DNA of 51,015 nucleotides from a virus. Below are positions 30,889 to 45,642 of this stretch, one piece after another; positions within the stretch are counted from its first letter, which is position 1, and the number at the start of each line of letters is the position of its first letter. A program made the translations under genes and the position numbers. Below the pieces are notes generated by a model. That model did no database searches, was not told the DNA's origin, and saw only the letters and a program-made list of their open reading frames with translations. The stretch spans positions 1 to 51,015 of IMG/VR virus record IMGVR_UViG_3300025645_000111, one strand, 5' to 3'.

Positions 30889-31680
30889 CTATGCAGCTTC
30901 GCCGATACCTTGGAATTTGCGGTCCAGGATACGGCGTACTTTAGAGTAAGTGATATCAGCAGCGCAAGCGTGGAGCGATGCGACCTGCTTAGCAATCTTC
31001 CTGGGGCCCAGCCCTCGGTCCCGCAGTTTGTAAATCGTCATCAACACATCCTGCTCTTCGGGGATCTCCTCCAGGCGAGTCCTGGTCTTATTGCCGTGCT
31101 TCTCCTGGACCTTAGCGTAGCCATAAGGAGCGCTGCCACCAATGAAGTATCCGCGAGAGGCCCAATCTACCTTGCCATCACCAAATCGGTCCTTGATGGT
31201 GGAGTGTTCTATCTCAGCAACCGCTGAAAGCACCATAAGCATGATCTGGTTAGCCATTTCGTTCATATCAAACTTAGATCTCAGGCCCTTCTGGCCTTCT
31301 GGCTTAGGATATACGATGGGCACCTCGCCAAACTGCTCACAAAAGAACAATGTAATGCCAATATCTTGCAATACGGGGATAATTGACAGCAAATCGGCGC
31401 TGGACCTGGATAATCGGTCCAATCGAGTGCAAACAATGACATCATGACGATCAATGATGTCGGTGAGCTCTTTACTGCCTGGTCGATCCAGGATTGGCCT
31501 GGTGCCGGACACGCCGTCATCTACCAGGAACTCTGTAACCTCTCGGTTATACTTCTCTTTAACAAAGTCAGCAATCTGCTGCTGCTGAACCTCTAAGGAC
31601 ACGCCAGATCGTACCTGCTCTTTAGTCGATACCCTGACATAGCCATAAATATTGTTGATTTGCTTGAGCGGATTAATCAT
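30889..31680 (-). CDS. Serine recombinase (263 aa)
   Basis: Resolvase/invertase-type catalytic domain: YGYVRVSTKEQ with nucleophile Ser18, DDGVSGT at 54-60, and TRLDRLSRS with Arg86, Arg89 and Arg92. A C-terminal DNA-binding part (GGSAPYGYAKVQEKHGNKTR, then RDRGLGPRKIAKQVASL) resembles the start of the large-recombinase domain, but lacks a zinc ribbon and long coiled coil. It could act as a phage integrase, a resolvase of circular dimers, or a fibre-region invertase. No inverted fibre cassette or attachment site was seen nearby. Confidence 0.85.
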   Translation of the reverse strand: MINPLKQINNIYGYVRVSTKEQVRSGVSLEVQQQQIADFVKEKYNREVTEFLVDDGVSGTRPILDRPGSKELTDIIDRHDVIVCTRLDRLSRSSADLLSIIPVLQDIGITLFFCEQFGEVPIVYPKPEGQKGLRSKFDMNEMANQIMLMVLSAVAEIEHSTIKDRFGDGKVDWASRGYFIGGSAPYGYAKVQEKHGNKTRTRLEEIPEEQDVLMTIYKLRDRGLGPRKIAKQVASLHACAADITYSKVRRILDRKFQGIGEAA

Positions 31681-31931
31681 ACAGCCTTTCTCTCCCTACA
31701 CTTGAACCCATAATCGGTAACTTCCTGAAACAAACGCTGCCAGTTGATGTTCAATGGCTGCCGATCACTAGCCCTATCGGCAAACAAGACCTGGCCATTC
31801 TTTACGAGCTCAACTGCAGCATAGTTTTTAGGCACACCGTCATAGACGATCTCGATGTCGTGCGCCAGGCAAATCCGGCGCACTCTGTTAGCAAATACTT
31901 TCTTCACCCTGGCTTCTTCAGATACTGGCAT
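31677..31931 (-). CDS. Small protein upstream of the recombinase (84 aa)
   Basis: A Cys/Arg-rich small protein (VFANRVRRICLAHDIEIVYD, then NWQRLFQEVTDYGFKCRE). The four-base overlap with the recombinase start and the TAATG junction with its upstream neighbour make it part of a four-gene leftward operon starting at 32360. No family is recognised. Confidence 0.65.
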   Translation of the reverse strand: MPVSEEARVKKVFANRVRRICLAHDIEIVYDGVPKNYAAVELVKNGQVLFADRASDRQPLNINWQRLFQEVTDYGFKCRERKAV

Positions 31932-32113
31932 TAACGTGCCCTCCCTTGAAGAAGAGCACGGATCATCTTGGCTTCCTTCGCTTTAATGCGAGGGTCCTTC
32001 TTGATCTCTTTCTCCACAGAATCAACCCTGATAATCTTTGACACGCCAGGTATGAAGCAATCATCTACCATTTTCTTGCGCTCTGCTCTTGTCATGCTTT
32101 CCCAGTTACCCAT
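31931..32113 (-). CDS. Small basic helical protein (60 aa)
   Basis: MGNWESMTRAERKKMVDDCF and RIKAKEAKMIRALLQGRAR form charged helices. The ATG overlaps the upstream stop by eight bases. Same operon as the recombinase. Function unknown. Confidence 0.6.
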   Translation of the reverse strand: MGNWESMTRAERKKMVDDCFIPGVSKIIRVDSVEKEIKKDPRIKAKEAKMIRALLQGRAR

Positions 32114-32360
32114 TCATCTTCTCCTCAAATTCAGCCCAAGCCTCTTTACCCGCGTCACTGTTCGCAGCTTCTTCCGCGATGGTGACCATGTAGTGGCCCA
32201 ACTCTTCTTCACCGTAAGTGGCTAACTTGACCAACTCTGCAGCGGTCATACCAACCTCTTCGGCACCCTGGTTAAAGACCGCAGGCAACATCATGGCAAC
32301 AGCCGGCGGAACACCGAACCTGGTTGCGAAGACCTCGATCTCGTTGACTAAAACACTCAT
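32106..32360 (-). CDS. First gene of the recombinase operon (84 aa)
   Basis: Helical, with hydrophobic but not membrane-spanning PPAVAMMLPAVFNQG and an acidic end KEAWAEFEEKMNG. A strong AAGGAG lies before the ATG, and a TTGCAC/TACATT promoter with the shared operator motif lies at 32388-32416. It may be a regulator because it is the first leftward early gene, but no HTH is evident. Confidence 0.65.
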   Translation of the reverse strand: MSVLVNEIEVFATRFGVPPAVAMMLPAVFNQGAEEVGMTAAELVKLATYGEEELGHYMVTIAEEAANSDAGKEAWAEFEEKMNG

Positions 32361-32387: not shown

Positions 32388-32416
32388 AATGTATCCTATA
32401 TCGTGTCGTTGTGCAA
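32388..32416 (-). promoter_or_regulatory. Early promoter/operator A (leftward)
   Basis: On the minus strand: TTGCAC, 17-bp spacer beginning AACGACACGATA, then TACATT. It drives the operon starting at 32360. It forms a perfect 15-bp inverted repeat (CGTGTCGTTGTGCAA at 32402-32416) with promoter B. Confidence 0.7.
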
Positions 32417-32450
32417 GCATAAATATACTTTAATTTAATTTAATAAATAG

Positions 32451-32479
32451 TTGCACAACGACACGTTATTAGGTATATT
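32451..32479 (+). promoter_or_regulatory. Early promoter/operator B (rightward)
   Basis: TTGCAC, 17-bp spacer beginning AACGACACGTTA, then TATATT, 31 bases before the ATG at 32511 and before a good AAGGAG. It is the divergent partner of promoter A, with about 35 bases of A/T-rich DNA between the two -35 elements. Confidence 0.75.
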
Positions 32480-32510
32480 GTAAATGTAAGTTAATTATTA
32501 AGGAGAAGTT

Positions 32511-32822
32511 ATGACTGCGTTTGTTAAAGAAGATTTTGCCTGGGACGGTATGTACTTAATGTATCGAGGCCGTCACTCTGAGTCTGTCAATATGGAGGTT
32601 GCACACCCTAACTGTCACCCTTCATGGATCGGCAAGCCAAAGCCAGCGTTTATTGCTCGCTTCAAATACGGCAGCAAGCCCTGGAAGTCTTGGGTAAACT
32701 GCTTGATGGATAACTATACTGTCGAAGGTTATCTCCAGGCTTGCAAAGAAAGCAGCCCGTTAGAGGCCGTCCAGGCTAAAGGTTACAAGGGTCGCGGCAG
32801 GTATAAGAGGATGGCAGCGTGA
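32511..32822 (+). CDS. First rightward early protein (103 aa)
   Basis: An aromatic-rich small protein (EDFAWDGMYLMYRGRHSESV, HPSWIGKPKPAFIARFKYG, KPWKSWVNCLMDNY) with a basic GYKGRGRYKRMAA end. It follows promoter B and a clear AAGGAG. Its position as first early gene and its composition suit a host-takeover protein, but nothing identifies its target. Confidence 0.7.
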   Translation: MTAFVKEDFAWDGMYLMYRGRHSESVNMEVAHPNCHPSWIGKPKPAFIARFKYGSKPWKSWVNCLMDNYTVEGYLQACKESSPLEAVQAKGYKGRGRYKRMAA

Positions 32823-32902
32823 TAGATATTGCGTTGCTTTTTACAGCCACAATGATGGGAGGGCTCCTGGCTCTCCTATTTGCCGAGGATAAAAATGAGT
32901 AA
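32819..32902 (+). CDS. Membrane microprotein (27 aa)
   Basis: A GTG start makes a GTGA overlap with the preceding stop, and the next ATG lies inside its end. The product (IDIALLFTATMMGGLLALLF, then AEDKNE) is almost entirely one hydrophobic span. The chain of overlaps and the direction support a real, very small gene. Confidence 0.5.
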   Translation: MIDIALLFTATMMGGLLALLFAEDKNE

Positions 32903-33008
32903 AATCATTATTGAGTTAGACAAAGAGGACGCTGAAGAAGTCCTTAAAACCCACGCGGAAATCCTGGAGTTATTGCGGGAGATCCTCAAGGAGCTGCAAG
33001 ATGGATAA
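32895..33008 (+). CDS. Leucine-zipper-like microprotein (37 aa)
   Basis: MSKIIIELDKEDAEEVLKTH then EILELLREILKELQDG is a strongly predicted charged helix. It overlaps the upstream stop by eight bases and the downstream ATG by eight bases. Function unknown; it could dimerise. Confidence 0.55.
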   Translation: MSKIIIELDKEDAEEVLKTHAEILELLREILKELQDG

Positions 33009-33210
33009 GTATTTCGACACTCTGGACCAGGCTGAATTGTTCCACGTGGAACCTGGTATGACTGAGAAGCAGCGAATGAAAATCTACAAACGTGCCCTGA
33101 ACGTGCATCATAACGCGGGGCCTGAAGCCAAACACATCGTAAAAATCTGGAGAGAGCAGAAAGATGAGCAAAGGTCACACCCAACGCCCCACCAATATGA
33201 AGAGTTTTAG
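33001..33210 (+). CDS. Small early protein (69 aa)
   Basis: ATG at 33001 directly follows an AAGGAG. The product is basic and His-rich (EKQRMKIYKRALNVHHNAGP, EAKHIVKIWREQK). The end overlaps the next gene by 47 bases in another frame. Function unknown. Confidence 0.6.
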   Translation: MDKYFDTLDQAELFHVEPGMTEKQRMKIYKRALNVHHNAGPEAKHIVKIWREQKDEQRSHPTPHQYEEF

Positions 33211-33349
33211 CGACAATTTTGATCGCATCTTCAACAAACCAACCGATCCTCGATTCTGTGACGCGCATGATTTGCGCCTGGTTGAGGACCCTAAAACCAA
33301 ACAAATGGTTTGCCCACACTGTGAGCAAGCCAAAGGAGAAGCAATATGA
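33164..33349 (+). CDS. Small putative zinc-binding early protein (61 aa)
   Basis: The end FCDAHDLRLVEDPKTKQMVC then PHCEQ supplies C..H and CPHC, a possible zinc site. The start at 33164 follows a GAGAG stretch; an inner ATG at 33197 is an alternative that removes the overlap with the previous gene. It ends in an ATGA overlap with the next gene. Confidence 0.6.
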   Translation: MSKGHTQRPTNMKSFSDNFDRIFNKPTDPRFCDAHDLRLVEDPKTKQMVCPHCEQAKGEAI

Positions 33350-33540
33350 GTGCAGATAGATACGAGCTGGAAGAGTTCTTCCAGGCAGAGAGCGGCAGCG
33401 GGTACGTTGTTACCAGGCGCTGCGGTGAAGCAAGTTATGAGGAGATAATAGCCAGGCGTGCCAAGATCCTGGATAAGCAAAAGAAGCCTCACGGGATCTA
33501 TTACATTAGCCCCCAGGGCGAGCGCAGCCGAGTTAAGTAG
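33346..33540 (+). CDS. Small early protein (64 aa)
   Basis: RYELEEFFQAESGSGYVVTR then GIYYISPQGERSRVK. It is coupled by ATGA to the preceding gene and is the last gene of the first rightward early operon. No recognised family. Confidence 0.6.
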   Translation: MSADRYELEEFFQAESGSGYVVTRRCGEASYEEIIARRAKILDKQKKPHGIYYISPQGERSRVK

Positions 33541-33551
33541 GCTGCAATTAG

Positions 33552-33580
33552 TTGTACAACGACACGATAAGTGTTACAAT
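33552..33580 (+). promoter_or_regulatory. Early promoter/operator C (rightward)
   Basis: TTGTAC, 17-bp spacer AACGACACGATAAGTGT, then TACAAT, 27 bases before the GTG of the HD hydrolase gene. This is the best match of all copies to a sigma-70 promoter, and it is the only unpaired copy. Confidence 0.75.
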
Positions 33581-33607
33581 AAACTGTATTGAGAAGGGAG
33601 GTGTGTT

Positions 33608-34048
33608 GTGGTTGCTGGGTTTCAAAAGGCTTTAGAGGTTGCCGTTGCCGAGTATGAGGAGCTGTTCGATAAGAACGGCTTGCCTATCATATTCCACGCG
33701 ATGGCCGTAGCCAAACCCATGATGGAGAAGTATGGCGAGACGCATGCTATTGTTGGATTGTTGCATGACGCTTACGAGAACGTCTGGAATACTGAGCAAG
33801 ATTTCATCGAGTGCGGTGAGATCTTTGGTCCTGAAATAGAGGCTGCGGTTCGAGCGGTCACTAAGGCCCCTGGTGAGGATTACTTGGAAGAATACATCCC
33901 CAGGTGTTTTGCCAACCCGATTGCAAAAGCAGTTAAGGTGTGCGACCTCAAAAACAACTACAATGGTCTTGACAGTATACCCAAGCCTGCCGATAGAAAA
34001 AGATTGGCAGCCAAGTATGCAGCAGCATTGCTCATGGCAGGAGAATAA
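33608..34048 (+). CDS. HD-domain hydrolase, SpoT/MESH1-like (146 aa)
   Basis: The metal-binding HD pattern of (p)ppGpp hydrolases is visible: IFHAMAVAK (His30), then ETHAIVGLLHDAYENV (His53-Asp54, followed by acidic residues), FGPEIEAAVRAVTKAPG, and KVCDLKNNYN (Asp113). The length suits a stand-alone MESH1-type enzyme. A GTG start at 33608 follows GGAGG by six bases, downstream of promoter C. It faces, tail to tail, a gene with a RelA/SpoT-like synthetase domain, so it may remove that domain's product or lower host (p)ppGpp. Substrate is inferred from the family. Confidence 0.8.
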   Translation: MVAGFQKALEVAVAEYEELFDKNGLPIIFHAMAVAKPMMEKYGETHAIVGLLHDAYENVWNTEQDFIECGEIFGPEIEAAVRAVTKAPGEDYLEEYIPRCFANPIAKAVKVCDLKNNYNGLDSIPKPADRKRLAAKYAAALLMAGE

Positions 34049-34049
34049 T

Positions 34050-34283
34050 ATGGAAAAGATAGAGAGTTATTGGACCTGGGAAGAAGCGCCAGGCGTTTTA
34101 GTTGACTACGGTGACGATAATTTTGGTGGATTTCACCTAGCCCAGGGCTCTGACGAATGGGAAAAACAGACCGAGTGGGATGTCGTTCAGTGGTTTAAAG
34201 AGGGTAAAAAGCTATCTAAGCCCAGTTTTGAAATGAAATACGGAAAGATCGGGGACCAGCTTCCACAACTCCCCCTTTCATAA
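34050..34283 (+). CDS. Small acidic protein (77 aa) between hydrolase and RelA-like gene
   Basis: ATG at 34050 follows AGGAG by seven bases and lies two bases after the hydrolase stop. The acidic, Trp-rich product (YWTWEEAPGVLVDYGDDNFG, DEWEKQTEWDVVQWFKEGKK) suits a protein-binding or inhibitor role. Its last 68 bases overlap the convergent RelA-like gene on the other strand. Function unknown; its position makes it a candidate third partner. Confidence 0.65.
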   Translation: MEKIESYWTWEEAPGVLVDYGDDNFGGFHLAQGSDEWEKQTEWDVVQWFKEGKKLSKPSFEMKYGKIGDQLPQLPLS

Positions 34284-35484
34284 ACTTATCCACAAGCTGC
34301 TCCACAATAGCAGGATCCGCTGCATCAAAAGCAGCACCAAACAGGCGCCTCTGCTCAGCAAGCGCCTTATTGTATAGCTTCAGCTTAGTACCAGGTATCT
34401 CGTGGTTGTACCGGCCTTCTAGCTTCCTGGAGTAATCATACCAGCGGTGAGCTCCCTGCTCCCCCGCATCAAACATTTCAGGCGTCTTAATCTGGATCTC
34501 AGCAACAATCTTCTTGCCGGTAGCCGGATCATCAACCAGGACATTCATCTTCCGGTCAAAGTAACCAGATTCAGGTATGCGCTGCCAACCTCGGTCGATA
34601 GTCGTGTACATCTGGCCTATTTGACTCACAGCCTCTTCTGCCTGGTCTGCAGTATCTATGTAAATCGTTGTTCTTACGCCATCGGTGAAGTCTGCCGGCG
34701 CCAGGCCCTTTCTCTCAACCTTGGTGGCTATGCTTTTCGGCGTCTTGACCTCAACATCAAACTGGCTGCCATCTTTTAGGTTGATAAACTTATCAGCTTT
34801 CTTGCCACCAACTGACTTAGCCACTGAGTCAATGTTAGCCTGGAATGAAGGGTTCACTGTGTTAGCTCGCTGGACCATGGCTTCAACCGAATTAAGATCA
34901 CCTTGCTGCCGTTTAAGTGCAGCCTCAATCTCTCTCACTCGCTCAATACCCAGCTCCTGGAATACAGGGGTGGTTCTGATCGGACCATCTACCTTGGTGC
35001 CCTGCTCAATCGCTGCAACTAACCTGGCGGCATCAATGGCTTCAACACCATCACCTACCCTGGCAACATCCTGGGGCAGATTATCAATTCCACCGGTCAG
35101 CTTCATGGCTTTTCTAAGTGCGCCTGGTGCCTTCAACGCGGTCCCCAGCGTAGCTCCGAGCGGCGGAATCACGTAGGTCGCATCACCCAGGACGCCTAAC
35201 GCCTGCAGCGCAGGATCTAGGATGTTGCCCTGGCGAATGTTCTCCAGGATAGAAGGATTGTTTTCGGCATCAAATATATCGGTGAGACCTGTATCAGACG
35301 ATGGCATTCCAGGCATATTACCGGTAGCATCAACAGTCGCTGCCCCAGGAAGTAGTTGCGCTGCAAAATACGCAGCCTGCTCCTCAGTCAGAAAAGGATC
35401 ACTCTTCTCTTCGGGATCGCGCATCATATCACTGACGCTGCCCCCAAGGTTAAAAGCGAATATGTCGATATCGTCTCTATTCAC
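34216..35484 (-). CDS. Long protein with C-terminal RelA/SpoT-like synthetase domain (422 aa)
   Basis: Residues 1-200 look like an ejected-protein leader (FLTEEQAAYFAAQLLPGAAT, a Gly/Ala/Pro stretch VIPPLGATLGTALKAPGALR). Residues about 240-360 align by eye with the Rel nucleotidyltransferase: EVKTPKSIATKVERKG (Lys247, Ser251, Lys255; the usual Arg is Glu), DFTDGVRTTIYID (Asp268), SGYFDRKM (Gly307-Tyr308, like GYQSIH), and VAEIQIKTPEMFDAGE (Glu329) with GAHRWYDYS. Key metal and base-stacking residues are kept. It may make (p)ppGpp or modify another nucleotide or RNA. GTG start. It converges on the HD hydrolase. Confidence 0.8.
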   Translation of the reverse strand: MNRDDIDIFAFNLGGSVSDMMRDPEEKSDPFLTEEQAAYFAAQLLPGAATVDATGNMPGMPSSDTGLTDIFDAENNPSILENIRQGNILDPALQALGVLGDATYVIPPLGATLGTALKAPGALRKAMKLTGGIDNLPQDVARVGDGVEAIDAARLVAAIEQGTKVDGPIRTTPVFQELGIERVREIEAALKRQQGDLNSVEAMVQRANTVNPSFQANIDSVAKSVGGKKADKFINLKDGSQFDVEVKTPKSIATKVERKGLAPADFTDGVRTTIYIDTADQAEEAVSQIGQMYTTIDRGWQRIPESGYFDRKMNVLVDDPATGKKIVAEIQIKTPEMFDAGEQGAHRWYDYSRKLEGRYNHEIPGTKLKLYNKALAEQRRLFGAAFDAADPAIVEQLVDKFMKGGVVEAGPRSFRISFQNWA

Positions 35485-35491
35485 CTAATAA

Positions 35492-35584
35492 TCACCTCGT
35501 AAGTAAATGCCAAAGGGCAATTGAGACAAATACGACAACTAGCGCTAAGCCTTTCCAAGTGTCGGGGTCTCTCCAATCATCCAT
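35492..35584 (-). CDS. Membrane microprotein (30 aa)
   Basis: The frame MDDWRDPDTWKGLALVVVFV then SIALWHLLTR lies wholly between the RelA-like gene and a short leftward gene. It has a charged start, one hydrophobic span and a basic end (positive-inside orientation at the C-terminus). A GGTGAT stretch precedes the ATG. Confidence 0.5.
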   Translation of the reverse strand: MDDWRDPDTWKGLALVVVFVSIALWHLLTR

Positions 35585-35588
35585 TGCA

Positions 35589-35774
35589 TCACCTAAATGA
35601 ATCGTCTGGGCCCACTATCGGCCTCATGAAATTTTCGGTGCCTGGTTCAGATTCGGATCTAGCCACCCTATTATCAAAAAAATCTACTGCTTCATAATAA
35701 TCCATGTCGCTCTTTTCAACAAGCAAAGCGATGCAGCGGTCACGATCTCCAGGACCATCTCTAAAGTCAGTCAT
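35589..35774 (-). CDS. Small acidic protein (61 aa)
   Basis: MTDFRDGPGDRDRCIALLVE then SDMDYYEAVDFFDNRVARSE; no family is recognised. It follows the TM/coiled-coil gene by 14 bases in a leftward run of short genes. Confidence 0.6.
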   Translation of the reverse strand: MTDFRDGPGDRDRCIALLVEKSDMDYYEAVDFFDNRVARSESEPGTENFMRPIVGPDDSFR

Positions 35775-35788
35775 TAACCAGGTACACT

Positions 35789-36145
35789 TTAGTCAGTTGG
35801 ATTAGGATCTTTGTAAAGGGCCTCAACAGTGCCGATCCTTATTGTGAGCTCATGAACACGGTCCTGCATTTCCCGCAGCTCGGACAAATCTCTATCAAGG
35901 CCCTCAATCATCATGTCTTGCCTGGCATCTGCCGGCAGAGCACCTAGCTGGCCCCTGGGCCAAAGGATGCGAAACTCAGAGTTGGACTTGATCTCAACAT
36001 CGGTTAGCTCAATCTTATGCTCCAGGGCAGTCAATCGAGACTCAACCGTAAAATACGCCATGGTCGATACCGCTGTAAAAGCAATCATTGCCAGGAGGTT
36101 TTTAAGTGGAATGGTGAGAGCGGTATTCTCGTTGAGCTCGGTCAT
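35789..36145 (-). CDS. Membrane-anchored coiled-coil protein (118 aa)
   Basis: N-terminal membrane segment at about 13-33 (LKNLLAMIAFTAVSTMAYF), then coiled coil and RILWPRGQLGALPADARQDM in the middle. The layout is that of phage membrane proteins of the spanin/XhlA type, but the gene is far from the lysis cluster. It overlaps its upstream neighbour by one base. Confidence 0.7.
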   Translation of the reverse strand: MTELNENTALTIPLKNLLAMIAFTAVSTMAYFTVESRLTALEHKIELTDVEIKSNSEFRILWPRGQLGALPADARQDMMIEGLDRDLSELREMQDRVHELTIRIGTVEALYKDPNPTD

Positions 36146-36390
36146 TACCGTTTCCTATAGGTCCTGGTCTTGCCAGCCACCTTCTTGGGCTGAGCGCTAT
36201 GCTGCTTACCCTTCTTTGTATCCGCTCGCTTCTTCCTGGTAGTCGCTGCATATTCCTTGTCGGACAGCGCCTTGATAGCCTTCTTCGGTAAATAACGCTC
36301 ACCGGTTTCAGCGCTAGGCTTACCGGACTTCGTGGTCCATTTCTGTTTAGTCCACTTCTTCAGGGACTTTTGGGGTTTCTTTAATGCCAT
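36145..36390 (-). CDS. Small Lys-rich protein, DUF5872-like (81 aa)
   Basis: KSLKKWTKQKWTTKSGKPSA and ETGERYLPKKAIKAL, then EYAATTRKKRADTKKGKQ, correspond to a small basic family that I remember as DUF5872, found in phages and giant viruses. It is probably a nucleic-acid-binding or virion-core protein. Confidence 0.75.
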   Translation of the reverse strand: MALKKPQKSLKKWTKQKWTTKSGKPSAETGERYLPKKAIKALSDKEYAATTRKKRADTKKGKQHSAQPKKVAGKTRTYRKR

Positions 36391-36575
36391 TATTTTTTAT
36401 AGCCTCCCCCCGCCTTCTTATATTCAGAAGCCAGCAATTGAGCCTTCCTGGCAGACCATTGACCCGCCTTTCCGCCCTTAGTACCAGCCTTGATACGATT
36501 GAACAGGTTTTTACGCATTGTGGGCTTAGTATAATTGCCCGAAGCATTCACCGTCGATTTTTTTTTGACCGCCAT
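36390..36575 (-). CDS. Small basic protein (61 aa)
   Basis: KKKSTVNASGNYTKPTMRKN and GGKAGQWSARKAQLLASEYK then KAGGGYKK form a very basic short protein of a type common in marine phages. An AAGGAGGG five bases before the ATG fixes the start at 36575, even though this overlaps the upstream nuclease-like gene by 50 bases. Confidence 0.75.
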   Translation of the reverse strand: MAVKKKSTVNASGNYTKPTMRKNLFNRIKAGTKGGKAGQWSARKAQLLASEYKKAGGGYKK

Positions 36576-36993
36576 AACTACCCTCCTTAAAGTATTTACC
36601 CAATAGTATAAACCATTGGTCCAAAGTCATTACCACGGTTTGCGCGTTGTCGCGCTCGAAACCAGGGTTGATCGCGTGAATCGGCACGCAGACCCTTATG
36701 GCTTTGTTGTTAAACTTATAGATAAGGACGGGAGTTCTGTCACCGCACGCCTCAAGCACCTGGTCCCACCAGGCGGGGGCATACCACCAGCCACTCTTAT
36801 ACGCCTTGGCCTCAATAGCATGACCAGGTATCTCAATGTCACACATGCCTGCAGTCTGATATTGATCGAGGTTGCGCTTACAGGTGAGGTCCTGGCCATT
36901 ACCATCGACTACCCCGTTATCCGCGAAAAAAGTATTTAGGCGCTTGACCAAATCACGCTCGAAGGCAGCTCCTTTGTTGCGTGAATCAGCCAT
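36526..36993 (-). CDS. PD-(D/E)XK nuclease, Holliday-junction-resolvase-like (155 aa)
   Basis: NKGAAFERDLVKRL (Glu12), then MCDIEIPGHAIEAKAYKSGW with Asp52 and the E-x-K pair Glu61-Lys63, is the archaeal-Hjc-like resolvase/PD-(D/E)XK layout. Such enzymes cut branched replication or packaging intermediates. It is not joined to TerL but sits in the leftward group downstream of TerS. Confidence 0.7.
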   Translation of the reverse strand: MADSRNKGAAFERDLVKRLNTFFADNGVVDGNGQDLTCKRNLDQYQTAGMCDIEIPGHAIEAKAYKSGWWYAPAWWDQVLEACGDRTPVLIYKFNNKAIRVCVPIHAINPGFERDNAQTVVMTLDQWFILLGKYFKEGSYGGQKKIDGECFGQLY

Positions 36994-37517
36994 ATCATCA
37001 TTTCCTTTTATTTAAAAATTTGAAAAAAATTTTTCCCCCCAGGCAACCCAAACGTCCCTAGAGTTTACCCCCCTGGACAATTTGGTGTGCAAAAATTTGC
37101 ACATAGAATCTGAAAGGGCAAAGTGTTTATCCATTACAGAATTTTAGTTACTGAATGTGTAAAACTCAAGTAAACCTATCCCGCTGGCCGCCGCCCCATT
37201 TAGGGGGGTGCCGCCCCAAAAAAACCAAAGGGATTCGATCTCGTTTTCTGGATCCATAGGGGTCCAATAAAATCCTGCCCTGGTGGCCCATATCCAGGCA
37301 AATCAGGCCCAATCAGCCCTGTTTGTGACCCCCGTGCTCACAGGGGGCGCGGACCAGGCTGCTCAATCCCTGGCAAAACCTGCCCTATATCACTGATTCT
37401 TATGGGAATTCCCTTTTTTATAACTTTTTTGCATATATCTGGGCACCAAAAAGAAAGAGCCCTCTTTCTTGGTTATATTCAACCTTCCCCAGGCTACCCT
37501 TTGCTTCGCAACTTGCG
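36994..37517. other. 524-bp non-coding region next to TerS
   Basis: No frame looks coding. The segment holds a GCCGCCCC direct repeat (37190-37197 and 37210-37217), an imperfect hairpin with CCCCC at 37329-37333 and GGGGG at 37343-37347, poly-A/T runs near its left edge, seven CCWGG sites and the TerS terminator. Being beside TerS it is a candidate packaging (pac/cos) region; it could equally hold a replication or transcription signal. Confidence 0.5.
37446..37470 (-). terminator. Intrinsic terminator after TerS
   Basis: On the minus strand AAGAAAGA and TCTTTCTT form a perfect 8-bp stem around a four-base loop, followed by TTTTT. It lies 48 bases past the TerS stop. Confidence 0.75.
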
Positions 37518-38045
37518 CTACACATCCTTGTCATCGTAGGTAGTTTTTATGCCCAATAAATCGTTCAGCCTCTCCTTGATATCCTCCTTGGTCATGCGCT
37601 CCAGGTTGGCGTTGATGTTAAGGTTTTGGCTGCGTTGTATTGACAGACCTGCCAGGCTGTTGAGCTCCTTCACCGCACTCACGGCAGCATTGTATGCGCC
37701 CTGCTCGAACGATGTCTCGGCGATATTCCATAGCATCGCACCAGTCTTTTCTGGCGTGATTGCATATTTCTCGCGCAGCTCTTCCTGGGCGATCCGCACT
37801 GCTTTTGTCACCTTCGGATGATCCCTACCGTTCAGCATCTTCGATGCGGCATTAGCTGGGAAGCTGAAGCCTGCTCTTCGAGCTGCCTCTGTCTGTCCGC
37901 ATGCACCTTCGGTGTAGTGCCAGACGAACCCTGCTTGCATATCGGTAATGCCCAGCTCCTCGTCTGCGACGAATTGAATGGGCGCGTTTGTGAGCTTAGG
38001 CTTTTCCTTCTTGGGTCTGCCTAATTTCTTTTCTTCTTCAGCCAT
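37518..38045 (-). CDS. terS: Terminase small subunit-like protein (175 aa)
   Basis: After a Lys-rich leader, ITDMQAGFVWHYTEGACGQT then EAARRAGFSFPANAASKMLN is the helix-turn-helix of Terminase_2-type small subunits. A long helical oligomerisation part follows (VRIAQEELREKYAITPEKTG) and then an acidic end. It would recognise the packaging site. TerL lies about 15 kb away, so the two subunits belong to different transcription units. Confidence 0.8.
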   Translation of the reverse strand: MAEEEKKLGRPKKEKPKLTNAPIQFVADEELGITDMQAGFVWHYTEGACGQTEAARRAGFSFPANAASKMLNGRDHPKVTKAVRIAQEELREKYAITPEKTGAMLWNIAETSFEQGAYNAAVSAVKELNSLAGLSIQRSQNLNINANLERMTKEDIKERLNDLLGIKTTYDDKDV

Positions 38046-38197
38046 AAGTCTCCTGCCATTTTTGCGAACATCCGTTCGGCCTCACCGTGGGCCAGTGGTC
38101 TCTCGCCGTAGCTCTCTCTTTCATCTTTGTTCATTAGCCGCCACTTATTGAAATTTTCGTTATAAGTAAGCTGCTCATCATAATCAAACACATCCAT
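38021..38197 (-). CDS. Small protein upstream of TerS (58 aa)
   Basis: ATG at 38197 follows GGAG by six bases. The product MDVFDYDEQLTYNENFNKWR then LAHGEAERMFAKMAGDLWLK is hydrophilic with a basic KKKRN end, and it overlaps the TerS start by 25 bases. No family is recognised. Confidence 0.6.
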   Translation of the reverse strand: MDVFDYDEQLTYNENFNKWRLMNKDERESYGERPLAHGEAERMFAKMAGDLWLKKKRN

Positions 38198-38503
38198 AGT
38201 CTTCTCCAGTGTACAGTGTAGGGTATAGTAGGTGTCTCATAGTAAGGCTATATGACCCTATATAAACTATAAATAACTCTACTTTATACTTATATAAAAC
38301 TGCTCTACCTAAAAGACTATACCCTACCCTACCTATAAAAAAACAAGCGATATATCAAGGACTTACGCATACACCTAACAGGGTACAGTGTATAGCTAAT
38401 CTCATTGTATAAATTTGCATACATTATCGTGTCCACTTATACCAACTTTATACATCGACACGATACACCAATTATGCCTACCTGTACCCTGCACCTCACC
38501 CTG
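38198..38503. promoter_or_regulatory. A/T-rich repeat-bearing intergenic region (candidate origin/regulatory region)
   Basis: No coding frame. A 12-bp inverted repeat (GTAGGGTATAGT at 38218-38229; ACTATACCCTAC at 38316-38327) encloses about 85 bases of A/T-rich DNA. GTACAGTGTA occurs twice (38211 and 38383). Two weaker copies of the early operator, ATCGTGTC at 38426-38433 and GACACGAT at 38457-38464, form an inverted pair. The region lies just past the primase-helicase gene, which makes it a replication-origin candidate. Confidence 0.5.
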
Positions 38504-40666
38504 TCACATATCCCACTTCGGGGCCGGTGGGAAGGTGTCATCTGCGGTGACTACCGCGTCATAATCCAGGTCATATATCTTCTTGCCATTGCTATATCTT
38601 GGTTCAACACCACGATCAGCGAGCACCCTGGCAGCGTCTTTGAAGTCCGCCATCCTGGGGTTGTTGATTCCCATGTCTCTGAGCAAGTGCGTCATTTGCA
38701 CTGGCTTCTTGTCTGCACTGTCAAACCGTATGTATTGTAGCAGTAGGTCTTCGACCGCGCTCTGGGTTCTAAAGAACTCGTTGCTGTCCTGCAGCATGAC
38801 CCGCTCTTCACTTGTAAGGAACCAGTTACGATCTCCCTTGGCATACATCGTCTGCTTGATCTCGGCCCACACTTGTTGCATGTTCAAGCCATGGCGCCAG
38901 TCTATCTCTGTCACCGGTACAACCCAGAACCGTCTGTTGCCGCTGGTGTCGATCAAGAACTCCCTCTCATTCACACTGGCATAGAACGCTGTGCGCCGCT
39001 GGTAATTGCTAAACGCTCGGTCATAAGGTAGGCGTAACTCATCGCTGCGCTTGGTTAGGAATGCCTTGAGCTGGTCAATATCTGCACGCTTGAAGGTGGA
39101 TCCCAACTCTCCGAGCTCGCATATCCAATGGCTAACACACTGCTTCACACTGTCCTTGTCCTGGGGATTCAGTGTAGCGCCTTCCAGCAGCCACTCTTTG
39201 TTCGGTGCCAGGCTGTTGAACCACTGCGTCTTACCGACTGCCTGGGCTCCCTGGAATACCAGGATACCCTCCAAATTAGCTCCGCCCTCCTCGCATGCTG
39301 CAGCAACACATCCTTGCAGCCACTTCTTCATCAGCATCTCTTTGAGCGGCTCATTAGGACTCTTAATGGTATCTAGGAACATCTGCAGCCTGGCCTTTCC
39401 ATCCCAGGGCTCACTCTCCATCCACTCCTTGACCGGATTGTACTCCCTGGCCAGCAGCTTCAGATTGAACCGGATACGTTCATGGGGGATCCCCATCTTG
39501 ATAGCACGGTCCTCGATCTCAATAATCGCCGCGTCATCCTTTAGGTCAGCGATAAACTTCTGGTTGGGTATGTGTATCTCGATCGCCTTCTTAATGACGT
39601 TGTAGTCCACCTCTATCTGATTGGTAACCAGGACGCCACGATGATTGTCCTTGGTGTGCAGGAAGCGCCCATTGCTGTTGCGCTCAAAGTCATACTCCTC
39701 CGGTATCCTCACCTCTTGCAGCGCCGGAATCACCTCTCCCTGCAGCGCTTCTTTGTGATCGTTGTAATCCCCCTTAGACTGCGGCATCAACACCTCAGCC
39801 TGGCCACCCCCACTCTTCACCGCCTGGGCTGCCTTAATTGCCTCTTTCTCGCCGGTCGCATTGTCATCGAAATCCGCGATGAAAATATGCTTGGCCTCAG
39901 CGAAGTGCTTGAATATGACTTCCGCAACAGGAGCCAGGTTGTAAGCATCAAAGCTCACCACCACCGGCTGCTTCATATCCTGGTAGTAACTGGCAGCTGT
40001 CGCATACCCTTCACAGTAGTTGATAGTGTGAGCGCCCTGGAGTAGGTCCTGGCCCAGGATGAAGAAGCTGCCCTTCTTCTTGGAACCAGTAAGGAACATC
40101 TTCCCCCCACCATCGTCAATATACTGCAGACCGACAATACTGAGAGATGCGTCCAGGAGAGGGATCATCAAGCGCCCATCGTTGTGCTGCTTGAGACCGT
40201 GACTTAATACATTCTTCTTGGTTAGGTAAGGGTGCTCGCTGCAGTCCTGGGCACCCTCCCAGATATTAGTGCTGCGCTTAGCAGCTCGGTTGTTCTTCTC
40301 TTCTTTCTTTGCCTGAGCTTCTGCCTGGAGCTGCTTGATCTCCTCTCGCTGCTCATCAGTCATCTTATAGCTGCTGCTGTTGTTCGGCTTCCAGGTTGCG
40401 GTGGGGTTAGCACTATCTACACGATAGTCACCGCATCGGCCAAAAGGGACGGTCTGGTCCGCCCAAAATTGATACCAACCAGTGAGCTTCTGCTTGCCAC
40501 CGACATCCATATAGGCTCTGCCAATGCTGCCATCGACCAGGAGGCCCTTCTTTTGGTCCAGTTGTAAGCCATTGTCTGCCAGGAACGATTCAAACTCTTG
40601 CCGGAAATTGCCCGTTATGGGCCTTGATTTATCTTTTTTATTGGTTGCACTGACTAGAAATGACAT
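38504..40666 (-). CDS. Primase-helicase: TOPRIM domain plus VirE/DUF5906-type P-loop ATPase (720 aa)
   Basis: The primase part contains GRCGDYRVDS (about 76-85), HGLKQHNDGRLMIPLLD and the TOPRIM motifs NYCEGYATA (Glu219) and FIADFDDNATG (Asp265, Asp268), then KGDYND. The C-terminal VirE-like helicase has GAQAVGKT (473-480), ICELGELGSTFKRADIDQLK and SGNRRFWVVPV. It would synthesise primers and unwind DNA; no DNA polymerase is encoded, so the host enzyme is presumably recruited. I chose ATG 40666, since the 44 residues further upstream belong to the divergent promoter region. Confidence 0.88.
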   Translation of the reverse strand: MSFLVSATNKKDKSRPITGNFRQEFESFLADNGLQLDQKKGLLVDGSIGRAYMDVGGKQKLTGWYQFWADQTVPFGRCGDYRVDSANPTATWKPNNSSSYKMTDEQREEIKQLQAEAQAKKEEKNNRAAKRSTNIWEGAQDCSEHPYLTKKNVLSHGLKQHNDGRLMIPLLDASLSIVGLQYIDDGGGKMFLTGSKKKGSFFILGQDLLQGAHTINYCEGYATAASYYQDMKQPVVVSFDAYNLAPVAEVIFKHFAEAKHIFIADFDDNATGEKEAIKAAQAVKSGGGQAEVLMPQSKGDYNDHKEALQGEVIPALQEVRIPEEYDFERNSNGRFLHTKDNHRGVLVTNQIEVDYNVIKKAIEIHIPNQKFIADLKDDAAIIEIEDRAIKMGIPHERIRFNLKLLAREYNPVKEWMESEPWDGKARLQMFLDTIKSPNEPLKEMLMKKWLQGCVAAACEEGGANLEGILVFQGAQAVGKTQWFNSLAPNKEWLLEGATLNPQDKDSVKQCVSHWICELGELGSTFKRADIDQLKAFLTKRSDELRLPYDRAFSNYQRRTAFYASVNEREFLIDTSGNRRFWVVPVTEIDWRHGLNMQQVWAEIKQTMYAKGDRNWFLTSEERVMLQDSNEFFRTQSAVEDLLLQYIRFDSADKKPVQMTHLLRDMGINNPRMADFKDAARVLADRGVEPRYSNGKKIYDLDYDAVVTADDTFPPAPKWDM

Positions 40667-40740
40667 TATTTTGTTGATCCTCCGCTTAGAATGTGTAGAA
40701 TAGTGCAAACTTATACAAACAATCAAGAGGTATTTGCAAA
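40667..40740. promoter_or_regulatory. Divergent promoter region between primase and SSB genes
   Basis: Rightward: TTGATC (40674-40679), 16 bp, TAGAAT (40696-40701). Leftward: TTGATT, 18 bp, TATTCT. Both fit sigma-70 boxes loosely. The AACGACACGATA operator is absent, so replication genes may be timed differently from the other early operons. Confidence 0.45.
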
Positions 40741-41496
40741 ATGGCACTAACAGCAAGCGCAGGATCGGGTGGTGAATCCACCTTTGAAACCGTACCACCA
40801 GGCTCTTACGAGGCTATCTGCTATCGACTTGTCGATGCAGGCACAGCGGAGGAAGATTACAAGGGAGAGATCTCCAAGAAGCATAAAATTTATATCTTCT
40901 GGGAAATCCCTGAGCTCACACTGAGCGATGGCCGCCCATATTCTATCTTCCACGGGTACACTTTGTCACTTAATGAGCGCAGTAATCTGCGTCGAGATCT
41001 CCAGGCATGGCGTAACCGGCCATTCACTGAGGAAGAGCTGCAGGCTTTTGACCTGACCAAGCTGCTCGGTGTGACCTGTAAGATCAACGTGGTCCTAAAT
41101 AGCAACGGCAACGCAAAGGTTGATGGCATTTTCTGCTCTGACCAGGGCGCCAAGCGCGTTGAAACCACGAACCCGACCTCAGTGTTTGACCTCGAAGAGT
41201 ACACCAAAGAATTTTCCGGCGAGAGCTGCGAGGCCAGCAAGGCGATGTGCGATGTCTTTGAAGAGCTGCCACGCTTCATCCAATGGCGAATTGCCGGTTG
41301 CGATGAAGACGGTAGAGACCAGCAGGCCCCGTGCTTTGAAGTGGCTGCAGCCTGGAAGAAAGGCGGCAATGTAACCAGCACACCACCTGTGTCTGGCTTA
41401 GAAGCAATGGCTGCTGATAAAGCAAAAGCGACAAAGAAGTCAAAAAAGAAGGAAGAGCCTGAAGAGGACTTCATCGACGACGACATCCCGTTTTAG
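40741..41496 (+). CDS. SSB-like single-stranded-DNA-binding protein (251 aa)
   Basis: Beta-rich body (KHKIYIFWEIPELTLSDGRP, LLGVTCKINVVLNSNGNAKV), then a Lys-rich linker and an acidic end EEDFIDDDIPF. This matches the DxDIPF tail used by bacterial and phage SSBs to recruit partners. It is divergent from the primase-helicase and is followed by the exonuclease, a consistent replication/recombination group. The core fold is not diagnostic by eye; the tail is. Confidence 0.7.
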   Translation: MALTASAGSGGESTFETVPPGSYEAICYRLVDAGTAEEDYKGEISKKHKIYIFWEIPELTLSDGRPYSIFHGYTLSLNERSNLRRDLQAWRNRPFTEEELQAFDLTKLLGVTCKINVVLNSNGNAKVDGIFCSDQGAKRVETTNPTSVFDLEEYTKEFSGESCEASKAMCDVFEELPRFIQWRIAGCDEDGRDQQAPCFEVAAAWKKGGNVTSTPPVSGLEAMAADKAKATKKSKKKEEPEEDFIDDDIPF

Positions 41497-41505
41497 GAAC
41501 CTGCT

Positions 41506-41943
41506 ATGAAAATTGAACTCACAGACGACCAGCGAGAAGACCTGGAGGCGTTCCAGGTCAATGGCGGCCTGAGCAATACAGCAATGGCTGGGCACCTGGG
41601 TGTTAGCCCTGGGGTTTGGTCAAGAGCAATGGAAGGCCAGCCGGTACGCATCAGCAGCTACAAGAAACTGGTGGCGTGCCTGGAGCCTGACGTTGATGAC
41701 CAGATGGCAGCTGCCCACGATATGGTCAACTCACCCAACCATTATGCTGACTCCGAGATAGAGTGCATTGACGCTATGGTTGCAGCCTTTGGCACCGAGC
41801 GTGTCAGGGCTTACTGTGAGCTTGCTGCATTCAAGTATCAGTGGCGATGTGGGAAGAAACCAGGCAATGACGCCGACCAGGAAAAGGCCAAATCAGTTTG
41901 GTATTTACGTTACTCAATGGGGGACGACCCCCGAAAGGATTAG
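41506..41943 (+). CDS. HTH plus DUF3310 protein (145 aa)
   Basis: Residues 1-60 form a Cro/XRE-like helix-turn-helix (NGGLSNTAMAGHLGVSPGVW). From about 74, VNSPNHYADSEIECIDAMVA then YCELAAFKYQWRCGKKPGND and EKAKSVWYL are the DUF3310 signature (T7 gp1.7-related, linked to nucleotide metabolism). The pairing is unusual: DUF3310 usually stands alone. It may be a regulator that senses nucleotides, or a DUF3310 enzyme with a DNA-binding arm. Confidence 0.75.
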   Translation: MKIELTDDQREDLEAFQVNGGLSNTAMAGHLGVSPGVWSRAMEGQPVRISSYKKLVACLEPDVDDQMAAAHDMVNSPNHYADSEIECIDAMVAAFGTERVRAYCELAAFKYQWRCGKKPGNDADQEKAKSVWYLRYSMGDDPRKD

Positions 41944-41944
41944 T

Positions 41945-42715
41945 ATGGATTTTAAACCAGGCATATACGAAGACCTCGATTATCCAACATATGACTCCAT
42001 CCCCGCATGGAGATCCCACGATTTAACCTCGATAGCCAAGTGCCCATTCACCTGGAAGAACCGCAAGTTCAACAACTCGCCGGCTCTCCTGGAGGGCAGG
42101 GTGCAGCACACCGTCTTTCTGGAGCATCACAAGTTCCACGACGAATTTGCCCTGGAGCCCAATGTGGACCGGCGCACTAAGGTGGGCAAAGAAGAGTATG
42201 CCGATTGGCTTACCTCGGTTGGTGACCGCACCCCTTGCAAGCAAGATATGTATGAAGTCTGCATGGAGCGCCGAGAGGTAGTTGCTGAGTACATACCCAA
42301 GCCAGAGCATCGAGTAGAGCTCACGCTTTGCTGGGAATGGTTGGGGCAGCCATGTAAGGGCAAATTAGATTGGCATACTGGCACTGACATCTGGGACCTC
42401 AAGACTTGCAGAGACGCATCCCCCAGGGGCTTCAAGTCAGCTATTAACAGCTTCAAGTATCACCAGCAAGCAGCCTATTATGTTGCCGGCTGCCGAGCCG
42501 TTGGTCTTCCGACTGAGAAGTTTTACTTCCTGGCCCAGGAGAAGATGGCCCCTTACCCCTATGCTGTCTATACCCTTTCAGATGAAGCCATAGCCTACGC
42601 AGATGCTAAGAATGAACAGGCCCTGGCAATCGGTATGGCGTGCAGGGAGAGTGACATCTACCTGCCTTATAACCAGGAAGGCATCAAGGAGTTTGACATA
42701 GGTGATCTTTACTAA
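41945..42715 (+). CDS. RecE-like PD-(D/E)XK exonuclease (256 aa)
   Basis: Start ATG 41945 follows GAAAGGA by six bases and lies one base after the DUF3310 stop. Exonuclease motifs are in order: GRVQHTVFLE (His55), HRVELTL (Glu115), KGKLDWH (Asp132), WDLKTCRDA (Asp141, Lys143) and YHQQAAYYV. It degrades one strand from DNA ends, feeding strand annealing. With the SSB-like gene it forms a recombination module, although no annealing protein was recognised. Confidence 0.85.
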   Translation: MDFKPGIYEDLDYPTYDSIPAWRSHDLTSIAKCPFTWKNRKFNNSPALLEGRVQHTVFLEHHKFHDEFALEPNVDRRTKVGKEEYADWLTSVGDRTPCKQDMYEVCMERREVVAEYIPKPEHRVELTLCWEWLGQPCKGKLDWHTGTDIWDLKTCRDASPRGFKSAINSFKYHQQAAYYVAGCRAVGLPTEKFYFLAQEKMAPYPYAVYTLSDEAIAYADAKNEQALAIGMACRESDIYLPYNQEGIKEFDIGDLY

Positions 42716-42908
42716 AGAAGAGCAGGAGCGTGAGGACATGTGGGCTGAGCAGAAAAAGTATTATGCTGCCAGGTCAGTATGGCGTAAACGCTTCCAGGAA
42801 GTCCCCAGCAGGCGCCACGGCAAAACTTGGGGCCAGTGGTTCGAGAAGATGTTTGGAGAGAACCTGGACGATTACGCTAAGCGTATGGCTAAAAAAAAGC
42901 CTGGGTGA
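42702..42908 (+). CDS. Small charged protein (68 aa)
   Basis: A GTG start lies 14 bases inside the exonuclease end. The product is highly charged (EEQEREDMWAEQKKYYAARS, KTWGQWFEKMFGENLDDYAK) with a basic RMAKKKPG end. Its stop lies in the loop of a terminator hairpin. Function unknown. Confidence 0.65.
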   Translation: MIFTKEEQEREDMWAEQKKYYAARSVWRKRFQEVPSRRHGKTWGQWFEKMFGENLDDYAKRMAKKKPG

Positions 42909-42923
42909 CCAGGCTATTTATTT
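42898..42923 (+). terminator. Terminator at the end of the SSB-exonuclease operon
   Basis: AGCCTGG (42898-42904), loop GTGA containing the TGA stop, CCAGGCT (42909-42915), then ATTTATTT. The T-tract is imperfect. On the other strand the stem is preceded by A-rich sequence (eight T on minus), so it may act in both directions. Confidence 0.65.
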
Positions 42924-43003
42924 CTAAATCTCCACCAATCAATTAGGTTTTGAATCACTAAGACTGCAATTAAGCAGTCTAAAAAAAGTAAAAAATCAAT
43001 CAT
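42914..43003 (-). CDS. Membrane microprotein (29 aa)
   Basis: The frame MIDFLLFLDCLIAVLVIQNL then IDWWRFRNK begins in an eight-base overlap with the zinc-ribbon stop. One hydrophobic span with an aromatic/basic C-terminal end is typical of small inner-membrane proteins. The perfect inverted repeat at 42961-42980 lies within it and could instead be a transcription signal. Confidence 0.45.
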   Translation of the reverse strand: MIDFLLFLDCLIAVLVIQNLIDWWRFRNK

Positions 43004-43154
43004 CGCAGGCTTTGCACCAGGGAATATCCCTCCCCTCTTCATCCTCTACCAGGCCAAGCTCCTCACCACACTTTTCACAGAACTCAGCCTCCACCCAATC
43101 AAGGTCCCCATGATGCCAGTCGGGGTCCTTGATATCCCAGTCACCGATCACCAC
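42996..43154 (-). CDS. Zinc-ribbon microprotein (52 aa)
   Basis: From GTG 43154 (or 43151) the frame encodes DWDIKDPDWHHGDLDWVEA, then FCEKCGEELG and DIPWCKACDD: two CxxC knuckles about 25 residues apart, a zinc ribbon. It overlaps its upstream neighbour and the microprotein downstream, in a five-gene leftward operon that begins at 43865. Confidence 0.65.
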   Translation of the reverse strand: MVIGDWDIKDPDWHHGDLDWVEAEFCEKCGEELGLVEDEEGRDIPWCKACDD

Positions 43155-43477
43155 TCAATCCTGTCGTGAATGGCAACTGCTCCATACCAACTTTGACCTA
43201 AAAGCTCTCGACATTTATCGCTGAAACGACTGTCGCTTGTTCCACCATAGTTTCCGCCAAACATTGTCCACTTGCCTTCAGCATCCGCCGGCTCGATTCT
43301 CAATATCTTTCTACCACCTATCGGCTCAGCCATAACCAAGACAGCAGCGGGGCTGTCTTCGCTGGGCTCAAATGGCCCCTCAACATTTGTGAGACATAAC
43401 TGCTTTGCGGTAGCGCTAATACCGCCTGCGGTGCTGTCACCAAGATCGTTTCGATAAACATAAACTGTCATACCCAT
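43148..43477 (-). CDS. Conserved-looking early protein (109 aa)
   Basis: Chosen start ATG 43477 gives TAATG coupling with the upstream stop. The product has a beta-rich start (MTVYVYRNDLGDSTAGGISA) and FGGNYGGTSDSRFSDKCREL, a segment I recall from small phage proteins of unknown role. No catalytic motif. Confidence 0.65.
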   Translation of the reverse strand: MGMTVYVYRNDLGDSTAGGISATAKQLCLTNVEGPFEPSEDSPAAVLVMAEPIGGRKILRIEPADAEGKWTMFGGNYGGTSDSRFSDKCRELLGQSWYGAVAIHDRIEW

Positions 43478-43671
43478 TAGAACCACTCCTTTTGACCAGT
43501 AATTGCGTGACGCATCTCAAGCACAACAAAGGGACATGTCACATCCATTGTCTGGGTTCCAGCCCACTCACAAGCCTGGTCCCAGGTTGGGAACCGCATG
43601 ACCTTGAAGCCATGCTGCCCATTCTTTACACCTCCACAGTGAAAGGTATCCATCTCAACCGTAATCATCAC
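43477..43671 (-). CDS. Small early protein (64 aa)
   Basis: MITVEMDTFHCGGVKNGQHG then FPTWDQACEWAGTQTMDVTC; three Cys and two His could bind metal but no standard pattern is seen. It overlaps the first gene of the operon by four bases. Confidence 0.6.
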   Translation of the reverse strand: MMITVEMDTFHCGGVKNGQHGFKVMRFPTWDQACEWAGTQTMDVTCPFVVLEMRHAITGQKEWF

Positions 43672-43865
43672 TCACCTCCTTCAGCTTCGATCATCTCATC
43701 ACAGAACCCCATGGCTTTCTCAAAGGCGTTTTGCGCCTCCTCATCTCTGCCGCACTGCATCATGAACGCCATGAATTGCAACTGAAACTTTATCTTGCTC
43801 GCAGCGCTCTGCTCTTCCTTGATCTCGTTACCGAACATGTCTATTGCTTGACCCATCTCACTCAC
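43668..43865 (-). CDS. First leftward gene of a small early operon (65 aa)
   Basis: Helical protein (MGQAIDMFGNEIKEEQSAAS, FQLQFMAFMMQCGRDEEAQN). GAGGAG lies a few bases before the ATG. It is downstream of promoter/operator F. Function unknown. Confidence 0.6.
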   Translation of the reverse strand: MSEMGQAIDMFGNEIKEEQSAASKIKFQLQFMAFMMQCGRDEEAQNAFEKAMGFCDEMIEAEGGE

Positions 43866-43895
43866 TCCTCAATTGATTAATTACCCTACATACAT

Positions 43896-43925
43896 ATAGT
43901 CTCATATTATCGTGTCGTTGTATAC
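43896..43925 (-). promoter_or_regulatory. Early promoter/operator F (leftward)
   Basis: On the minus strand GTATAC, an 18-bp spacer beginning AACGACACGATA, then GACTAT. The boxes are weaker than in copies A, B and C, but the operator core is intact. It serves the operon starting at 43865 and pairs divergently with copy G. Confidence 0.6.
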
Positions 43926-44010
43926 ATCTTTACACATTATATATAGACCGTGTAGTTATAAGGGCTGCAGCTGATATGCACTTTTATTCTATATATATTT
44001 GTGCAAACAC

Positions 44011-44039
44011 TTGCACAACGACACGATATGTGTGATTAT
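44011..44039 (+). promoter_or_regulatory. Early promoter/operator G (rightward)
   Basis: TTGCAC, spacer AACGACACGATATGTGT (17), then GATTAT, 38 bases before the gene at 44078. Just upstream, TTGTGCAA (43999-44006) and TTGCACAA (44011-44018) form an 8-bp inverted repeat with a four-base gap, overlapping the -35 box. Confidence 0.7.
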
Positions 44040-44665: not shown

Positions 44666-44681
44666 AGCCCCTTCGGGGGCT
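44666..44681 (+). terminator. UUCG-loop hairpin between convergent genes
   Basis: AGCCCC, loop TTCG, GGGGCT: a perfect 6-bp stem with a stable tetraloop in the 20 bases separating the convergent stops at 44659 and 44680. No long T-run follows, so termination in either direction may rely on the hairpin alone. Confidence 0.6.
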
Positions 44682-45405: not shown

Positions 45406-45456
45406 ATTCTTACACAAAACTATAAACTGGTCCAGACAAATTTGATAGGACTAACA

Positions 45457-45642
45457 ATGACTAACGTAGAAGATAAACCACAACCAGATCGCCAGCGTAA
45501 AAGCCTGGCTGTTGACCAGCACACCTATGATTTGCTGCAGGAAATTTGCTTCGATCAGAGACGCTCAAAGATAGACCAGCTCAAGATTTTGATTGAGCAT
45601 GAGCATGACCGACTGTTCCTGGCTGCAGGGATCCAGGCGTGA
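45457..45642 (+). CDS. Small ribbon-helix-helix-like protein (61 aa)
   Basis: Start ATG 45457 follows AGGA by six bases. After a charged leader, RKSLAVDQHTYDLLQEICFD then RSKIDQLKILIEHEHDRLF looks like a short beta strand plus two helices, as in Arc/MetJ-type DNA-binding proteins. It is a candidate for the regulator acting at the shared operator; that link is only inference. Confidence 0.65.
   Translation: MTNVEDKPQPDRQRKSLAVDQHTYDLLQEICFDQRRSKIDQLKILIEHEHDRLFLAAGIQA

Follow-up and report, generated by a model that had tools for sequence, protein, structure and literature searches.

Arc of phage P22 is a ribbon-helix-helix regulator encoded by a virus. SvtR, AvtR and F55 of archaeal viruses are further viral regulators of this fold, and viral and plasmid ribbon-helix-helix proteins mostly repress, according to passages of PMC5569661. 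For cluster A mycobacteriophages such as L5 and TipsytheTRex, passages of PMC9283540 describe one repressor that uses many asymmetric operator or stoperator sites across the genome, oriented with transcription and located in promoters and intergenic regions. Here, we describe a repeated promoter element in the 51,015-base IMG/VR virus record IMGVR_UViG_3300025645_000111, positions 1 to 51,015 (hereafter the window), which may work like both the cluster A operator sets and the viral ribbon-helix-helix regulons. We propose with moderate confidence that the element is one promoter-operator module with one or more phage-encoded readers at every copy, most likely repressing scattered accessory gene cassettes together.

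Possible points of likeness to cluster A phages are that the element is oriented with transcription and lies in promoters (147 of 171 copies), with one lone inverted intergenic pair. Unlike in cluster A phages, nearly all copies are in promoters, and the element contains an additional dyad. Scans of 40 (PHROGs) and 20 (Pfam) window proteins named no cluster A-type repressor, no search dedicated to one having been made. The likeness to viral ribbon-helix-helix regulators would be that a virus encodes a small protein of this fold, that its promoters contain repeated sites and that, in the known examples, the effect is mostly repression. The sites are different, however, the promoters are of the bacterial type, and our candidate reader is assigned by its predicted fold and has no Pfam match above threshold.

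The terminase and capsid of the window are about 57–64% identical to those of HTVC023P, HTVC027P, 023Pt_psg01 and DSL-LC04 (HTVC023P-type pelagiphages and relatives), whereas no copy of the element turned up in the parts of these records, or of the CRP-901 record, that were fetched. Nothing in the phage collection closely matches the early region of the window. HTVC027P expresses temporal gene clusters in mosaic order, according to part of PMC12753301, and the word “promoter” is absent from the main text of PMC9599517 and PMC12753301. Searches of an open-access library gave no description of the element. Of 107 papers there that contain one of three strings of motif letters, the ten listed look unrelated by title, and searches for similar phage promoter systems gave few or no hits.

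Copies of the Element in the Window

An earlier note on this DNA had listed seven copies of the 12-mer AACGACACGATA, or of a one- to three-base variant, between -35 and -10 boxes. All seven places are real, comprising six strong copies and a weak one (Table 1), and the observation of a shared promoter element is confirmed. The exact 12-mer lies at 32399-32410(-), 33558-33569(+), 43908-43919(-) and 44017-44028(+), with one mismatch at 32457-32468(+) and 38454-38465(+), and with three at 38425-38436(-). By simple arithmetic, chance would give about 0.2 matches at one mismatch or fewer. At three mismatches, the 12-mer is unspecific (42 matches vs. 24.2 expected), so the weak seventh copy rests on its conservation in relatives. 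The boxes could be read directly in four copies, as described before: TTGYAC at 32416(-), 32451(+), 33552(+) and 44011(+) is followed after exactly 17 bp by TACATT, TATATT, TACAAT and GATTAT, respectively. At 43925(-), the copy reads GTATAC, and its -10 box is displaced by one base.

All six strong sites are intergenic, in keeping with the claim that no copy lies inside a gene, and they alone reach at least 12 bits in the window with a 30-position profile, whose seeds included window-like copies. A second profile was built from 60 elements of diverged kin only. With it, five strong copies take ranks 1–5 in the window (48.3, 46.8, 28.2, 27.3 and 8.2), followed by a dyad at 37097 (6.4) and then by nothing above -8.8, and the best of 40 simulated windows scores 6.0. 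The remaining strong copy, 38448(+), falls outside the 12 best matches to this kin-only profile.

The copies had also been arranged in three divergent pairs. Two are indeed promoter pairs, 35 and 86 bp apart, but in the one at 38.4 kb it is the spacer motif that occurs as an inverted pair (38425..38433(-) and 38448..38465(+)). This pair, located between the primase and the terminase small subunit, is kept in close relatives and has no gene on the plus strand behind its 38448..38465(+) member. In all, 35 of the 37 distinct pairs of neighbouring copies (at most 200 bp apart) are divergent, with a spacing of almost always 35, 67 or 86 bp, which shared descent can explain.

Table 1. Element copies, candidate readers and associated genes in the window
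Feature	Position	Strand	Remarks
Element copy 1	32388..32416	-	before 32106-32360(-) and the recombinase operon; exact 12-mer; kin-only profile 27.3
Element copy 2	32451..32479	+	before 32511-32822(+); one mismatch; kin-only profile 46.8
Element copy 3	33552..33580	+	before 33608-34048(+); exact 12-mer; kin-only profile 28.2
Weak copy, spacer motif GACACGATA	38425..38433	-	three mismatches; inverted partner of 38448..38465(+)
Element copy with TTATACATCGACACGATA	38448..38465	+	one mismatch; 15.4 with first profile; conserved in relatives
Element copy, GTATAC type	43896..43925	-	before 43668-43865(-); exact 12-mer; kin-only profile 8.2
Element copy, best match	44011..44039	+	before 44078-44659(+); exact 12-mer; kin-only profile 48.3
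O1 dyad TGTGCAAACACTTGCACA of the 44011 copy	44000..44017	+	perfect match
Lone O1 dyad TGTGCAAAAATTTGCACA without O2	37086..37103		perfect match; kept in L125, L128 and L129 with other central bases
Ribbon-helix-helix protein, 61 residues, candidate O1 reader	45457..45642	+	predicted structure, fold matches
p31677, 84 residues, candidate O2 reader	31677..31931	-	co-occurs with O2; in recombinase operon behind the element
Serine recombinase, 263 residues, operon behind copy 1	30889..31680	-	Pfam Resolvase PF00239; PHROG integrase / DNA invertase
HD-type phosphohydrolase behind copy 3	33608..34048	+	PHROG 990 metal-dependent phosphohydrolase

Architecture and Genomic Position

The consensus of 63 non-redundant family copies (after removal of copies of at least 75% identity) reads TGTRYAA-N4-TTGYACA (O1), W, CGACACGR (O2), seven bases, and TATAAT. 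The two arms of the O1 dyad are separated by 11 bp; the right arm contains the -35 box, and the dyad is centred at about -37.5. O2 occupies the spacer at about -27 to -20. Because the search pattern fixed or restricted the core letters from the -35 box to CGACACG, the conservation of this core is not independent evidence, but the upstream box and the -10 box, which the pattern left free, still carry information. When nothing but TTGYAYAW and TANNNT was fixed, there were 94 distinct matches, 74 with CGACACG, in a sequence set mostly fetched by the element or by primase. De novo counting of 10-mers in diverged kin was uninformative. The basal relatives L179, L181, L192, L194 and L199 have O1 without O2. 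G022, G029 and G457 are also among the kin lacking O2.

After identical 60-mers had been dropped, 171 distinct copies remained, of which 154 have a ribosome-binding site and a start codon within about 200 nt. In 147, these lie 34–100 nt downstream (median 64), compared with 12.4% of random positions. The interpretation of the element as a promoter carrying added conserved sequence is supported.

The proteins encoded downstream number 137 and group into 67 clusters, most of which have no known function. We scanned 60 of these proteins, namely the window's five and representatives of most clusters, and Pfam named 11 families with one protein each, including ArdC-like anti-restriction, SNF2 helicase and HD domain families; the PADLOC matches shown for downstream proteins are helicase-type families, also one protein each. 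The element had been thought to switch all early operons, but the primase, the recombination operon at 40741-42908 and the ribbon-helix-helix operon at 45457 do not carry it. Instead, it is found at the recombinase operon and at small cassettes of accessory genes. If the proposed module is correct, any gene landing behind the element would come under the common switch; this would account for the exchange of accessory genes by these phages with timing kept. The element could also serve as a tag, the first gene behind each copy being a likely host-takeover or counter-defence gene. Few functions are annotated in this phage group, and one copy precedes an ArdC-like anti-restriction gene.

Phage Restriction and Concerted Variation of O2

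The 29-nt version of the element occurs in 77 stretches of IMG/VR and only once in bacterial and archaeal genomes totalling 257 Gb (84,980 species genomes). This lone match is at background, a relaxed pattern giving 31 matches in that one genome vs. 27 for the reversed control. In 19 phage records, searched over their whole length, there were 84 matches vs. 6 for the reversed control, although most of these records were chosen because they contain the element, and G017, which has one match, is perhaps unrelated. Judging from these searches, the element is phage-specific.

The base following CGACACG is nearly constant within a record: the lineage of the window has A, and most others have G. Among 36 records that carry at least two sites and were listed by hand, the within-record agreement of O2 was 0.783 vs. 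0.464 after shuffling (0 of 5000 shuffles). Such agreement is as expected if one protein reads all copies, and we regard it as a strong but not conclusive sign of a trans-acting reader. The inverted pair changes too, having GACACGAT in the window's close kin and GACACGG in L145, L149 and L150. Further out, O2 drifts to CGACACCC in L154 and L308 and to TGATACCC at one L199 promoter. In L189, CGACACG lies 2 bp further from the -35 box; this shift, together with the inverted pair and its missing plus-strand gene, indicates that O2 is not just a part of the promoter. The suggestion that a phage protein reads the spacer thus gains from the phage restriction and from the variants that co-vary within a record, whereas for the protein itself we can propose candidates.

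Candidate Readers of O1 and O2

The product of 45457-45642 is a ribbon-helix-helix protein by its predicted fold, with an extended N-terminus and helices at residues 21–34 and 38–60 (mean predicted local distance difference test score, pLDDT, 80.8). Most of the top Foldseek and VIA matches are ribbon-helix-helix proteins (CopG, Arc, PutA, NikR, AmrZ), with Z up to 6.5. Pfam RHH_1 was hit in two of the 24 family members, with a best E of 0.012, below the cut-off, and not in the window protein; the phage family has no cultured members carrying this protein. All seven other records compared encode a homologue. Residues 14, 16 and 18 are invariant in 24 sequences, and alignment to CopG (model 11–55 on chain 1–45) places them on CopG residues 4, 6 and 8, which contact DNA. 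Since both the protein and O1 occur in kin without O2, O1 is its most natural target, and we consider the ribbon-helix-helix protein the most likely reader of O1. It had been named before as a possible reader and, with its predicted fold and family-wide presence, is a good candidate; the 32106 protein, also named, has a narrow distribution (12 variants found). A possible promoter without O2 lies just upstream of the ribbon-helix-helix gene (TTGCAT, 17 bp, then TAAACT or TATAAA).

Residue 22 of this protein was considered as a specificity switch and is kept as a hint. The correspondence was near-perfect in 24 non-redundant records, many of which had been fetched by the A-class pattern. Loci fetched by the ribbon-helix-helix protein alone (117, of which three were dropped and 114 read, 61 of them distinct) gave His with A in 10, His with G in 2, another residue with A in 2, another residue with G in 19, and no site in 28. 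The columns of several replication proteins follow the A/G class perfectly. The A class is one side of a branch in the exonuclease tree (support 65/82), and it needs at least two changes in the tree of the oxygenase gene beside the ribbon-helix-helix gene. The conflict between the exonuclease tree and that of this 2OG-Fe(II) oxygenase gene (44680-45417) suggests that block 44680-45417 was exchanged between lineages.

For O2, the reader is most likely either the ribbon-helix-helix protein or p31677. The latter is predicted to fold as helix-three strands-helix (mean pLDDT 84.7), without a convincing match in Foldseek or VIA-align 2, contains no recognised DNA-binding domain and is absent from cultured phage records. 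We also considered a relationship to double-stranded RNA-binding domains, many of which reach Z of about 3 to 5 in VIA-align 2, but the best Foldseek E is 0.88 and we make no such claim. Among 47 distinct recombinase loci with 400 nt upstream, p31677 and O2 occur together in 41 and are both missing in four; the count is biased, the element itself having been used to fetch most of the 41. L308 combines p31677 with the variant CGACACC. In a set retrieved with the ribbon-helix-helix protein, G445, G446 and G448 have p31677 and O2, and G457 has neither. Wherever the recombinase was seen without p31677 (L199, L305, L306, L307 and G457), O2 is absent as well. In L199, L305 and L306, other small genes precede the recombinase, and the promoters have different spacers. 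More speculatively, and rather doubtfully at present, p31677 might be a phage regulator of a new type, sequence-specific for CGACACGR in the spacer; the overlapping dyad would then be left to the ribbon-helix-helix protein, and the two would make a two-key switch for exchangeable accessory genes across the family.

Probable Repression and Its Alternatives

We infer that the module would serve a family of uncultured phages in the expression of scattered cassettes of accessory, probably early, genes. Transcription by host RNA polymerase would start just past TATAAT, shortly before each ribosome-binding site. No phage RNA polymerase of the T7 type was named in the PHROGs scan of 40 window proteins. 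One or more phage DNA-binding proteins would bind O1, over the -35 box, and O2, in the spacer, at every copy. As O1 and O2 both lie within the core promoter, binding would most likely block the polymerase and shut off the cassettes together.

The -10 box and its position fit a sigma-70-type promoter, but the -35 box (TTGYAC) is poor and far from TTGACA. A generic sigma-70 scan gave 20 hits in the window vs. 18.3 expected, which is no excess, and only the element copies 32452 and 33553 pass it. A phage protein bound at the element might thus recruit host polymerase and switch the cassettes on. Some activators bind near -37.5, where O1 is centred. We hold activation to be a possible but clearly weaker candidate, because the spacer, where O2 lies, is an unusual place for an activator and several copies have a better shifted -35 box (TGCACA or TGTACA). 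The conserved distances to the -10 box and to the start codons, together with the many related copies, would also be expected of a strong constitutive phage promoter, in which the 29 bp would just be what suits the host polymerase best and would have been copied from cassette to cassette without any regulator. Such a promoter would not need a conserved spacer, however, and the displacement of O2 relative to the -35 box in L189, the changes of O2 in step within a record and the inverted O2 pair at 38.4 kb without a plus-strand gene make it unlikely.

A host transcription factor exploited by the phage appears more improbable still. The host may be missing from the genome collection, but the 29-nt version has its one match at background among the species genomes, and O2 differs between phage lineages; a host regulon was set aside on the same single match. 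No prophage trace was found by means of p31677 in 398 Pseudomonadota genomes, in a search that had no positive control and was made without knowledge of the true host. Several observations weigh against repression by phage-encoded readers, which we nevertheless favour. The poor -35 box also fits an activator, descent and cassette copying can explain part of the within-record agreement of O2, and the ribbon-helix-helix protein also occurs in kin without O2. As for p31677, one of the 47 recombinase loci (L158) has it without O2, and, besides the bias in the count, its pattern with O2 may reflect one or two events.

Neighbouring Genes and a Lone Dyad

The serine recombinase lies near a tail-fibre gene of 1381 residues (25569-29714) and could be a tail-fibre invertase or an integrase. 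In the region of the recombinase operon, 29731-30714 encodes a protein composed of many near-identical repeats (TSAVGSVTV..AEANVT type), with homologues in relatives. At 41506-41943, a helix-turn-helix-like N-terminal stretch is fused to DUF3310. This protein is the third possible reader named in the earlier note; its homologue in record G004 has 95 residues vs. 145 in the window. The lone O1 dyad sits in the non-coding stretch 36994-37517, between terminase-small-subunit-like and RusA-like genes and without a -10 box, and is perhaps an operator or a packaging site.

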